The notes under the pieces are model-generated. The model did no database searches, was not told the DNA's origin, and saw only the letters and a list, made by a program, of their open reading frames with translations. From assembly GCF_039545095.1 (NCBI RefSeq), contig NZ_BAABRS010000004.1, positions 1 through 64,000 of the forward strand: a DNA stretch of 64,000 bases, given 5' to 3'. Source of the stretch: Fodinibius salicampi (GTDB taxonomy: Bacteria > Bacteroidota > Rhodothermia > Balneolales > Balneolaceae). This document shows, piece by piece, positions 2,865 through 39,517 of this stretch. The position numbers and the translations under genes were made by a program. The stretch's first letter is position 1, and each line of letters starts with the position of its first letter.

Positions 2865-3236
2865 ATGGCTGACGTTAAAGATTTAGCTGAACAATTAGTT
2901 AATTTAACAGTAAAAGAAGCAAACGAACTCGCTAACGTTCTTGAAGAAGAATACGACATTAAGCCTGCGGCTGCAACAGCAGTAGTAGCTGGTGGCGGCG
3001 ACGAAGGCGGTGGCGGTGAAGAACAAACAGAATTTGATGTTATTCTGAATGGCCCCGGCGACAAGAAAATTGCCGTCATTAAAGAGGTTCGTAGTATTAC
3101 GGGTCTCGGCCTTAAGGAAGCAAAAGAGCTTGTTGATAACGCACCTAATCCTATTAAGGAGGGTGTTGATAAAGCAGAAGCTGAAGACCTTAAGTCTAAG
3201 CTTGAAGAAGCAGGCGCTGAAGTTGAACTTAAATAA
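2865..3236 (+). CDS. rplL: 50S ribosomal protein L7/L12
   Basis: The 123-residue protein has the N-terminal dimerisation domain ([26 protein letters not shown] split over residues 1-26), a flexible hinge with [12 protein letters not shown] (about 43-54), and the factor-binding C-terminal domain with [20 protein letters not shown]. It recruits translational GTPases. The hinge is richer in Gly and Glu than the Ala-rich hinge of enterics, and the whole protein is strongly acidic. A hairpin separates it from rpoB. Confidence 0.97.
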
Positions 3237-3267
3237 TTAGGTTCAAATACTAACATTTTTGTCATTA

Positions 3268-35864: not shown

Positions 35865-35938
35865 GGCGTGGTAGCTCAGTTGGTGAGAGCGTCGGATTCA
35901 TAACCCGGAGGTCGGCGGTTCGATTCCGCCCCACGCTA
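35865..35938 (+). tRNA. tRNA-Met (CAT anticodon), probably elongator
   Basis: The acceptor GGCGTGG (35865-35871) pairs with CCACGCT (35931-35937) with one G:U at the end, and A35938 is the discriminator. The anticodon loop is TTCATAA. The anticodon stem lacks the full GGG/CCC set of initiator tRNA (it has GGA on the 5' side), and position 1:72 can pair, so elongator is favoured. A tRNA-Ile with a modified CAT anticodon is not excluded. Confidence 0.88.
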
Positions 35939-35967
35939 CTCCATACTATATATCATATACCATATCT

Positions 35968-36005
35968 CCCTAAGTAGTTGAATATAGCTGCTTGGGGATT
36001 TTTTG
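35968..36005 (+). terminator. Terminator after tRNA-Met
   Basis: CCCTAAGTAG (35968-35977) pairs with CTGCTTGGGG (35988-35997) with two G:T pairs, followed by ATTTTTTG. It lies 30 nt past the tRNA and has no other gene to serve. Confidence 0.72.
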
Positions 36006-36234
36006 TTTTGGGGATCGGAAGCTGGGGCGTGATAAACAGTGTATGTAATGTATCCGTCGTTTTTTATACATTCTATATTGACTGCAATAGTTAAAAGCAG
36101 AGAGGAGAGAAAATAATCATTTCAAAAGTTTGCAAAATTGGTTAGTTATCAGTCTGGGCTTTTTTAGTAGTTGAAGCAGAAGTCCTACTCAAAAAAGAAA
36201 GAGCGGGAAACAGTTAATTAAACGGGTATTTATT

Positions 36235-37041
36235 ATGAAATCCTTCCTCACATTTATCTTTACGGTTGTTCTTGCTACATCACTTTTTGCACAGGATTAT
36301 GCCGTACAGCAGCTTGAAAACTCTCCGCGTCACCACGAGTGGGTTGAATTGGAATCGAGTGGACGTACGATGCATAATTTTGTGGCATACCCTGAAAGCT
36401 CAGAATATGCTACCGTGGTTATTGTGATCCATGAAAATCGCGGACTTAATGACTGGGCGCGCAGTTTCGCCGATCAGCTGGCCGAAGCCGGGTATATAGC
36501 CGTCGCCCCGGATCTTATTTCCAATACCGTGGATGGAGTAGAGAAAACCTCTGATTTTGAAAACTCTGACGCGGCACGCGAGGCCATTTATAATCTGGAT
36601 GCCGAAATGGTAACGCAGGATTTGAAGAACGTGCTTGAGTATGCACAATCCATAAAAGCGGGGAACGGGAAAGTTGCTGTAGCAGGATTTTGCTGGGGCG
36701 GGTCTCAATCCTTCCGCTTTGCCACCAATGCGGGCGATGCCATTGAAGCGGCCCTGGTATTTTACGGGACGGGGCCTGACAATTATGAAGATTATAAGCG
36801 CATTGAAGCACCGGTTTATGGATTCTACGGAGGAGATGACCAGCGTGTAAATGCGACGATTGAAGATAGCGAGGCGATGATGGAGAAGGCCGGGAAAACC
36901 TATGAGTACGAAATCTACGAGGGGGCGGGACACGCTTATATGCGCAGCGGCGATGATCCCGAAGCGCCGAAAGATGACCCCAATGTGCAGGCGCGTAATG
37001 AATCGTGGGATCGCTTAAAGAGTATTCTTAAAAGTCTTTAA
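36235..37041 (+). CDS. Secreted dienelactone hydrolase family protein
   Basis: The 268-residue alpha/beta hydrolase has a signal peptide (MKSFLTFIFTVVLATSLFAQ). The triad is visible: nucleophile C153 in GFCWGG, an acid near D201/D202 in GGDDQRVNA, and H233 in GAGHAYMRSG; E67 in HENRGL is the conserved glutamate that activates the cysteine. Classical dienelactone hydrolases are cytosolic enzymes of chloroaromatic breakdown; exported relatives in this group have unknown esters as substrates. It stands alone after tRNA-Met. Confidence 0.9.
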   Translation: MKSFLTFIFTVVLATSLFAQDYAVQQLENSPRHHEWVELESSGRTMHNFVAYPESSEYATVVIVIHENRGLNDWARSFADQLAEAGYIAVAPDLISNTVDGVEKTSDFENSDAAREAIYNLDAEMVTQDLKNVLEYAQSIKAGNGKVAVAGFCWGGSQSFRFATNAGDAIEAALVFYGTGPDNYEDYKRIEAPVYGFYGGDDQRVNATIEDSEAMMEKAGKTYEYEIYEGAGHAYMRSGDDPEAPKDDPNVQARNESWDRLKSILKSL

Positions 37042-37308
37042 GTGTTTATTTAGGAATTAATAAGTTTTTAAAAAATTCCCTAACCGCTCTGATGAGGCTG
37101 CTCCAAAAGTAACTATAACAAGTTGTACGCCTTATTTTGTTAGGTGTAGGATAAATAAAAATGTCCCTTGTCAGGATTCCAGGGGGGGCTAGCGCCGTTT
37201 TTGGGTCGTTACAAAAATGGAACAAGACAAGGAGACATGTTTAAAAATTCTGCTCTTTTATCTCGGGAAATGTTCTTTATCTTCTCCCGTCTTTTAACGT
37301 TTTCCTTA

Positions 37309-37331
37309 CCACTTTTGGTCGCCAAAAGTGG
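37309..37331. repeat. Perfect hairpin, copy A of a related pair
   Basis: CCACTTTTGG and CCAAAAGTGG form a perfect 10-bp stem around TCG. The segment CTTTTGGTCGCCAAAAGTGG resembles copy B (37707-37732) in order and spacing, including the following GAGCA/GACAC. No T-run makes it a terminator. Confidence 0.7.
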
Positions 37332-37596
37332 AGCAAAAACGACCGGCGAACCGGCTTCGGCGTTCGGCATCGCTCGGTACGGAAATAAATGAAGATCTCG
37401 TTTATTCGGTTGCCCCAACAAGGGGAAAGTCCGGAAGTATCTCCTGCTTTTATCACAGCTTTCCCCATTTATTTCTCTTTCGTACCTCCCGCTCCCTTTC
37501 CACGCCTCACCTGCTAAGGCCGGTGGGTTGGAATAATGTCCCACCAGCCTTGCGAACAGGATAAGTCCATTGGAGCACAAAGAAATAAACCGGGGT

Positions 37597-37695
37597 CTGG
37601 GGAATAGCGGGAACGCTAAGAGCAAAAACAACTAACGCAACCCGGCGCTCCCCGTATTGAGATTTATAACAAAACAATATCTTGCTATTCCCCAG
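37597..37695. repeat. 12-bp inverted repeat spanning about 100 bp
   Basis: CTGGGGAATAGC (37597-37608) is the exact reverse complement of GCTATTCCCCAG (37684-37695). The 75 bases between contain short GC-rich self-complementary runs, so a folded RNA or a small element end-structure is possible. No transposase is present. Confidence 0.5.
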
Positions 37696-37706
37696 CACTT
37701 TTTTCG

Positions 37707-37732
37707 TCTATTTTTTGGTGACAAAAAATGGA
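37707..37732. repeat. Hairpin, copy B of a related pair
   Basis: TCTATTTTTTG (37707-37717) pairs with CAAAAAATGGA (37722-37732) over 11 bases with one G:T, loop GTGA. It matches copy A in overall pattern, and a third, weaker look-alike (TTTGCCA-CTTT-TGGCAAA) is at 39734-39751. Confidence 0.6.
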
Positions 37733-38030
37733 CACTGCTTATCAATAAAAACACAAAAAGGGTTGCCTAAACCATTATGCCATGGTGCATTTATGTTTTG
37801 TCCCTTTCAAGAATGGAACAATATTAGTGATTACAAAAAACAAAATGTATCAAATCATCCCCTTGCCTCCTTCAGTTTACATGCAGTATCTTTTCAACGG
37901 CCGTGCCGAAAGGGGGACTTGATTCCCGGCCTTGTATTCCCTCCGGATCGGTGGGATATTTCTTAGGAGGGTGCTTTGATAGATTCTACGGCGCAGGCTT
38001 TTTCTTGTGTAACGATAACCATGGCTGCTC

Positions 38031-38184
38031 CTGGTGTCAGTAATATTAACTTCTGGTGTCGGTGACACTAACTCTTGGAGTCAGCGATACTAACTCCTGG
38101 TCATAGTGACTCTAACTCCCAGTGATAGCGTTACTAAGTAGTAGTGGTAGTGTCTCTGACTCCCAGTGGTAATAGCGCTATTAT
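38031..38184. repeat. Seven-unit diverged 22-bp tandem repeat
   Basis: Seven consecutive units of exactly 22 bp start at 38031, 38053, 38075, 38097, 38119, 38141 and 38163. Most open with CTGG or CCAG and close with TAACTC or GACTC. Unit two reads CTGGTGTCGGTGACACTAAC plus TC. Units have diverged by substitution only; the spacing never slips. Several contain a short dyad (GTGTCGGTGACAC). Because 22 is not a multiple of three and stops occur, it is not coding. A weak eighth unit may precede at 38009-38030. Confidence 0.8.
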
Positions 38185-38512
38185 TACATGGCAAGGTGCG
38201 GTCGGTATCTGGGATGACACATGGCTATTATTTTATCCGGAGTTAGAAAAGATTTAGCCGTTAAGCGCGTTGACAAATATAATATCCCAAAATTATTGCC
38301 GTAAAGGAGGGATGGATATTGTCTGTTAAGATTAGCTATTGAGGTGGTCAAACCAGGGATTTTCATATCTTTTCTTGTTGAATCAGGTTATATATATCCG
38401 TAAGAAAAGTTATTTCAACATTTAAGATTCTTTTTTGACATTTTATCGTAAATAAACGAGACTAAACAAGCTCGATATGAAAAGAAAATATTAAACTAAA
38501 CCGTTCAAAATT

Positions 38513-39517
38513 ATGGCACGTCCTGTAACTTTATTTACTGGTCAGTGGGCTGACTTATCATTGGAAACTATAGCAGAAAAGGCATCCTCTTGGGGGTACG
38601 ACGGACTGGAGCTTGCCTGTTGGGGAGATCATTTTAATGTTCAAAAGGCGCTCAGTGAAGATGGTTATTGCGAGCAGCGCAAAGAGTTGCTCGCCAAGTA
38701 TGATCTGAAGGTATGGTCGGTCAGTAATCACCTGGTGGGTCAGGCGGTTTGCGATCCCATCGATAAGCGACACAAGGAGATTCTTCCGGGCCGTATCTGG
38801 GGTGACGGTGAACCCGAACAGGTGCGCCAGCGGGCTGCAGAGGAAATAAAGGATACTGCAAGGGCAGCCGCTAAGCTGGGTGTCGATGTGGTAAATGGCT
38901 TTACCGGCAGTTCTATCTGGTCAAAGATGTATTCCTTTCCTCCGAATACGCCGGGATTAATTGACGAAGGATTCGAAGATTTTGCCAACCGCTGGAATCC
39001 CATCCTCGATGTATTTGATGATGTAGGCGTGCGCTTTGGTCTGGAAGTGCATCCTACCGAAATAGCCTTTGATATTGTAACGGCCGAGCGGGCTATTGAC
39101 GCACTGGACGGCAGAAAAGCTTTTGGATTTAACTACGATCCGAGCCATATGGGTTACCAGGGCGTAGATTATATCCAGTTTATCCGGGAATTCAGTGACC
39201 GTATTTATCACGCACATATGAAAGACGTATGGTGGTCTTCTGAAACCCGCCGTTCGGGAGTCTTTGGCGGACACCTGGAGTTTGGTGATGTTGACCGGTA
39301 CTGGGATTTTGTTTCTATCGGTCGCGGAAGGATTGACTTTGAGCGGGTGGTTCGCGCATTGAACCGCATTCAGTATGACGGGCCGCTTTCCGTTGAGTGG
39401 GAAGACAGCGGTATGGATCGTGAGTTTGGTGCCGAGGAATCTTGCCGATATGTTAAGAATATCGATTTCCCCGCTGCCGAAGGGGCCTTTGATTCCGCCT
39501 TTTCCGAAAACGACTAA
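38513..39517 (+). CDS. Sugar phosphate isomerase/epimerase-like TIM-barrel protein
   Basis: The 334-residue cytosolic protein matches the AP-endonuclease-2/xylose isomerase-like barrel. Likely metal ligands are E178 (FGLEVHP), D209 and H212 ([10 protein letters not shown]), H235 (HAHMKD) and E295 (LSVEWED). Such enzymes isomerise or epimerise sugars, inositol derivatives or hydroxypyruvate. No signal peptide is seen, unlike most later enzymes in this cluster. It opens a plus-strand sugar-acid gene cluster (38.5-47.3 kb) but is separated from it by 1.1 kb and a terminator, so co-regulation is only suggested. Confidence 0.88.

Follow-up and report, generated by a model that had tools for sequence, protein, structure and literature searches.

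The window studied here, a stretch of 64,000 nucleotides from Fodinibius salicampi, contains an orphan member of a family of tandem arrays, defined here, that is linked to HU-DUF4469 genes; it has a period of 22 bp and dyad units. The private arrays found behind genes of this class suggest that each protein is paired with its own row of putative binding sites. Gene and array would probably form a module, in which the array offers the cognate HU-DUF4469 protein successive dimer sites at intervals of two helical turns, and the array of the window would be an orphan member of such a module.

The array in the window and its relatives in the same genome

The array and the features around it are listed in table 1.

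Table 1. Coordinates of the window array and of neighbouring features.
Position	Strand	Feature	Basis
37307..37745	.	separate dispersed repeat, 86% to L005 4220-4670, in a repeat-rich intergenic stretch	sequence comparison
37964..38008	-	tail common to C1:1597270, absent from the gene-linked C3 array	own-genome sequence comparison
about 38009..38030	-	strongly degenerate eighth unit	alignment to the copy at C1:1597270, by eye
38031..38184	-	orphan array, seven 22-bp dyad units	Tandem Repeats Finder, own-genome comparison, dyad test
38185..38211	-	leader common to C1:1597270	own-genome sequence comparison
38405..38512	+	promoter block (TTGACA ... GAGACTA) for the gene downstream, separate from the array	kept in relatives without the array
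38513..39517	+	downstream gene, xylose isomerase-like TIM barrel (PF01261), neighbour only	domain match

An earlier, sequence-only reading had described seven 22-bp units here. Tandem Repeats Finder reports periods of 22 and 44 at 38028-38168, and the array is well above chance: a 300-kb stretch of the same genome contains just two other arrays with period 22/23 at or above the threshold of 47 of 88 matches, and both are already known orphans, found independently as relatives. Each unit is exactly 22 bp long, with no internal indels. The minus strand is the natural orientation, and the family consensus on this strand is about TAACACCAGGAGTTAGTGTCAC. The internal dyad that had been noticed in the units is significant (z 3.6, p 0.004, column permutation). 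As also claimed, the array is non-coding in effect, since 22 cannot be divided by 3 and the ORFs that overlap it are all short chance ones, and it is not CRISPR-like, its units following one another head-to-tail without spacers. No match was obtained with Rfam (which finds only tRNAs in the window), PADLOC, NCBIfam or PHROGs. No inverted repeat pairs of at least 10 bp are reported in 37930-38250, and no terminal inverted repeats were found.

There are three homologous arrays in the same genome, at C1:1597270, C2:122022 and C3:400689. The last of these, to which the window array aligns, is directly behind an intact gene with HU-DNA_bdg (PF14848) and DUF4469 (PF14734) domains (C3:399935-400567), and the array at C2:122022 carries the last 45 bp of an HU-DUF4469 gene whose intact copy is the C3 gene. 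The window itself has no HU-DUF4469 gene, and its array is classed as an orphan copy. The block homologous between the window and C1:1597270 is about 248 bp long (about 37964 to 38211) and comprises leader, array and tail; the leader has a weaker likeness to the stretch just 3' of the stop codon of the C3 gene. The C1:1597270 copy has exactly one 22-bp unit more than the window array. Variable unit length had been named as the mark of an ordinary minisatellite; here the length stays at 22 and the copy number differs by a whole unit. Leader and tail have diverged between the two copies about as much as the array, so there is no sign of special constraint on these two orphans. A search of the kind that had been proposed yields three homologous arrays in the own genome; used as a DNA query against 97 relatives, the window array gave no match there. 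Sequence homology alone therefore misses the pattern, and the partner gene is needed.

With gene-linked arrays as queries, about ten further orphan arrays were found, which makes about 13 including the three orphans of the window family; arrays lacking a resident gene could be missed by this census outside the 300-kb sample, in which every array has a resident gene-linked match. The orphans match the arrays of five genes (L009, L010, L012, L014 and L015). Those examined are intergenic, beside unrelated genes, with no preferred orientation to their neighbours. For most of the orphans outside the window family, homology to the gene-linked array stops at the array edges.

Arrays behind HU-DUF4469 genes

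The genome has eight HU-DUF4469 loci: six are intact, L013 has a TAG stop and L016 is broken. Other Fodinibius relatives have from none to five each, a patchy distribution within the genus. A tandem array with a period of 22, 23 or, once, 24 bp, mostly palindromic, is present 3' of 33 of the 34 intact genes, which come from Fodinibius and its relatives, Parabacteroides, a Treponema plasmid and fecal scaffolds. The linkage between gene and array spans three phyla.

In Fodinibius and same-phylum relatives, 24 of the 25 distinct intact genes have a 22/23-bp array in the 3' flank, some of these loci being orthologues and hence not independent (L047-L051, which duplicate L028-L031 and L033 in content, are counted once). 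Significant 22- or 23-bp periodicity is found in the 400 bp 3' of the stop for 23 of the 25 genes; the 24th is L042, with periodicity at +383, and L038, with no array in its 3' flank, is the sole exception. By contrast, none of the 5' flanks of the same 25 genes has a significant array. The nine further loci (six from Parabacteroides distasonis, one from a Treponema saccharophilum plasmid and two from fecal scaffolds) all have an array, of period 23 or, once, 24 bp. For L120, among the six Parabacteroides genes, the annotation gives two overlapping frames; on the fecal scaffold L114, a short additional frame separates the gene from the array, which follows the stop at a distance of about 490 bp. 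Although labelled as plasmids, the Parabacteroides records appear to be chromosome pieces. Among the damaged or partial genes, L016, L041 and L046 have no array and L013 has a weak one. At L009, L010, L025, L026, L028, L030, L031 and L033, the interval between gene and array contains clear terminator-like hairpins; a simple hairpin scan gave hits at 15 of 23 loci, several of these hits being weak.

Other features of these loci were also recorded. A promoter-like motif, TTTGTAAGGATT and, after about 14 bases, GGTCTTACTATA, is found upstream of many HU-DUF4469 genes (5' flanks of L010, L011, L025, L027, L031, L032 and L040) and upstream of at least one other stretch, and also in L087 at about 3220-3260; it looks like a promoter read by an alternative sigma factor. 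In two species of Treponema (L109, and T. denticola TDE_2258/2259, PMC12724145), the HU-DUF4469 gene is beside a gene for a leucine-rich-repeat protein. Scans of viral contigs gave no relative of the HU-DUF4469 protein.

The array motif is private to each gene and common only to orthologues or close pairs. At a patatin-gene locus, three species have the gene with an array of the same period, and the motif of G000 differs from those of G002 and G009. Protein and array similarity are correlated (Mantel r 0.48), for which linkage and common descent could by themselves account. By column permutation, 24 of 28 arrays have a significant dyad, the exceptions being L031, L045, L109 and L111. The orthologous loci L011 and L040 (50% protein identity) both have GACA-N6-TGTC-type cores in 23-bp steps, with different linkers; the exact motif is present in 4 and 5 copies at these loci, compared with 1 in the 300 kb background. 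In the arrays of L015, L082 and L083, the units alternate between the palindromes CCCATATATATGGG and CCCATTACTATGGG, giving a period of 46 on top of 23, beside which the 44-bp period of the window array may be set.

A candidate protein–site module and its alternatives

The partner protein, which combines PF14848 and PF14734, has an HU fold in its AlphaFold model (pLDDT 88.8), with an Ig-like DUF4469 tail. The best solved relative of the model is 4fmr, a 'putative bacterial DNA binding protein', followed by weaker matches to HU and IHF. Both HU and IHF act as dimers. Palindromes two turns apart and private to each gene suggest cognate dimers stacked along the array. In the module that we propose, an HU-fold gene with an Ig-like tail carries its private palindromic array, at 22-24 bp spacing, just 3' of the stop; a dimer of the cognate protein probably binds each palindrome; and the dimers would be lined up along one side of the DNA at intervals of about two turns. 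A long nucleoprotein complex could then form over the linked array, and over orphan copies at other sites such as that of the window, and would most likely control local chromatin or transcription by bridging the linked array and its orphans.

The module reading is based on the paralogous arrays of the genome, one of them directly behind a gene for HU-DNA_bdg plus DUF4469; on the arrays in the 3' flanks (24/25 and 9/9), against 0/25 in the 5' flanks; on the prevalence of significant dyads (24/28); on core conservation between orthologues; on the lack of any unmatched array in 300 kb; and on the modelled HU fold. The possible origin of the Mantel correlation in linkage and descent, the similar divergence of array, leader and tail between the window and C1:1597270 copies, the gene without an array (L038) and the dyads that are not significant speak against it. 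The sequence-only reading had suggested protein sites lined up on one face of the DNA, and this fits the two-turn period, the dyad, the linkage to an HU-fold gene and the cores of orthologues, binding being the predicted step. More tentatively, and with somewhat less than even chances in our estimate, HU-DUF4469 genes and their private arrays may make up a widespread, self-contained system in which each protein would recognise no array family but its own, on chromosomal and perhaps also on invading DNA, and such pairs would diversify quickly: a self-labelling nucleoprotein system without a described counterpart.

The arrays could instead belong to a passive dispersing element of leader, array and tail, a MITE-like minisatellite such as BrickBuilt, with no binding function and with the HU-DUF4469 gene as passenger or source. 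The discrete block of about 248 bp common to the window and C1:1597270, the 45 bp of gene that accompany the C2:122022 array and the patchy distribution across the genus are all in keeping with this explanation, as is the P. distasonis locus L121 (2343-3341), where an HU-DUF4469-like gene and its array stand amid consecutive ABC transporter genes of the opposite strand, as though the two had been inserted together. However, terminal inverted repeats were not found in the window array, most other orphans are homologous in the array alone, cores are kept between orthologous loci and the linkage is to one gene class in three phyla. We regard a passive element as rather unlikely.

That the array is transcribed and acts as a row of small RNA hairpins, the other suggestion of the sequence-only reading, is very unlikely. 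Predicted folding of the plus strand is strong (z -2.6), but arms pair equally well within a unit and between units (difference 0.02, p 0.47), G-T pairs (51) are not in excess over A-C pairs (75), terminator-like hairpins precede the arrays at several loci and Rfam has no match. With no pairing advantage within units and no wobble excess, the symmetry is that of a conserved DNA motif: the dyads belong to the motif level, without unit-by-unit covariation, which argues against hairpins. Binding of the arrays by a different, general DNA-binding protein, with the HU-DUF4469 gene merely co-inherited, is most improbable; a motif that differs for every gene is hard to reconcile with one general binder.

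An operator for the downstream sugar-acid genes, the first of which starts about 330 bp from the array, is hardly credible and was rejected, because three relatives keep the downstream gene (82-85% identical) and part of its promoter region (48-112 bp aligned) with no array there, and homologous arrays lie beside unrelated genes. The position upstream of the sugar-acid cluster, noted earlier, is thus correct, but it is not a conserved link. In two of the three relatives, the distance from a tRNA gene to the counterpart of the 38513 gene downstream of it is a few hundred bases, compared with about 2.6 kb in the window (35865-38513); by this comparison the array appears to sit in inserted or rearranged DNA, and the data suggest that 35865-38513 is an insertion hot spot. 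The dispersed repeat of about 450 bp (37307-37745 and L005 4220-4670) is beside orphan arrays at both places, and pieces of it are also found near the locus of an L010-type gene.

Comparison with known systems

The linked genes belong to the HU-HIG / Bvu_2165 family (PF14848, PF14734, PF18291; structure 4fmr), which, as a 2017 paper on HU clades reportedly proposed, may act against invading elements. The same pair of domains is present in T. denticola TDE_2259 (PMC12724145); literature searches for the domain brought up this paper alone, and a text search of it turned up no mention of arrays. In the open-licence literature, we found no description of arrays linked to HU-DUF4469 / HU-HIG genes.

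BrickBuilt of Porphyromonas gingivalis consists of 23-nt tandem repeats without spacers, with a dyad, a leader and a tail, in 19 dispersed intergenic copies that expand by whole units; one copy is beside an HU-type (PF00216) gene (PMC4596501). It has terminal inverted repeats, target duplications and one sequence family, and no partner gene was proposed (PMC4596501). The arrays described here share its unit length, its dyad, its leader and tail and its dispersal, but they have no terminal inverted repeats that we could find, and every HU-DUF4469 gene comes with a sequence family of its own. As for target duplications, the relatives found offer no sufficiently similar empty site for comparison. 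Such proteins could have their sites in the dispersed 22-23 bp minisatellites of Bacteroidota, perhaps including BrickBuilt.

In REP/RAYT systems, a gene is flanked by private palindromes and orphan copies of the same family are dispersed, as is the case here; RAYT is a Y1 HUH transposase. The partner here has an HU fold (PF14848 plus PF14734) and no known nuclease, and is not a Y1 (HUH) transposase; its sites, strictly tandem at 22-24 bp, occur solely 3' of the gene. BrickBuilt and REP/RAYT are the closest known systems, and neither fits.

The iteron and centromere arrays of plasmid origins and parS/parC are tandem sites about two helical turns apart, bound by the product of the adjacent gene. 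The spacing and the adjoining gene are alike here, where binding by the gene product would be expected, but the arrays are chromosomal, with numerous paralogous modules in one genome. Among the neighbours, neither a replication initiator nor a ParA-type gene was noticed; the window array adjoins a dienelactone hydrolase gene and the TIM-barrel gene.

An uncharacterised, expanded class of HU-fold proteins thus gains a concrete candidate DNA target, the array behind each gene, and the many natural protein–site pairs may serve to study changes of DNA specificity. DNA-binding proteins encoded beside a series of their own sites are known as an arrangement; that in the HU-DUF4469 class, across three phyla, each gene has a private series appears to be new.
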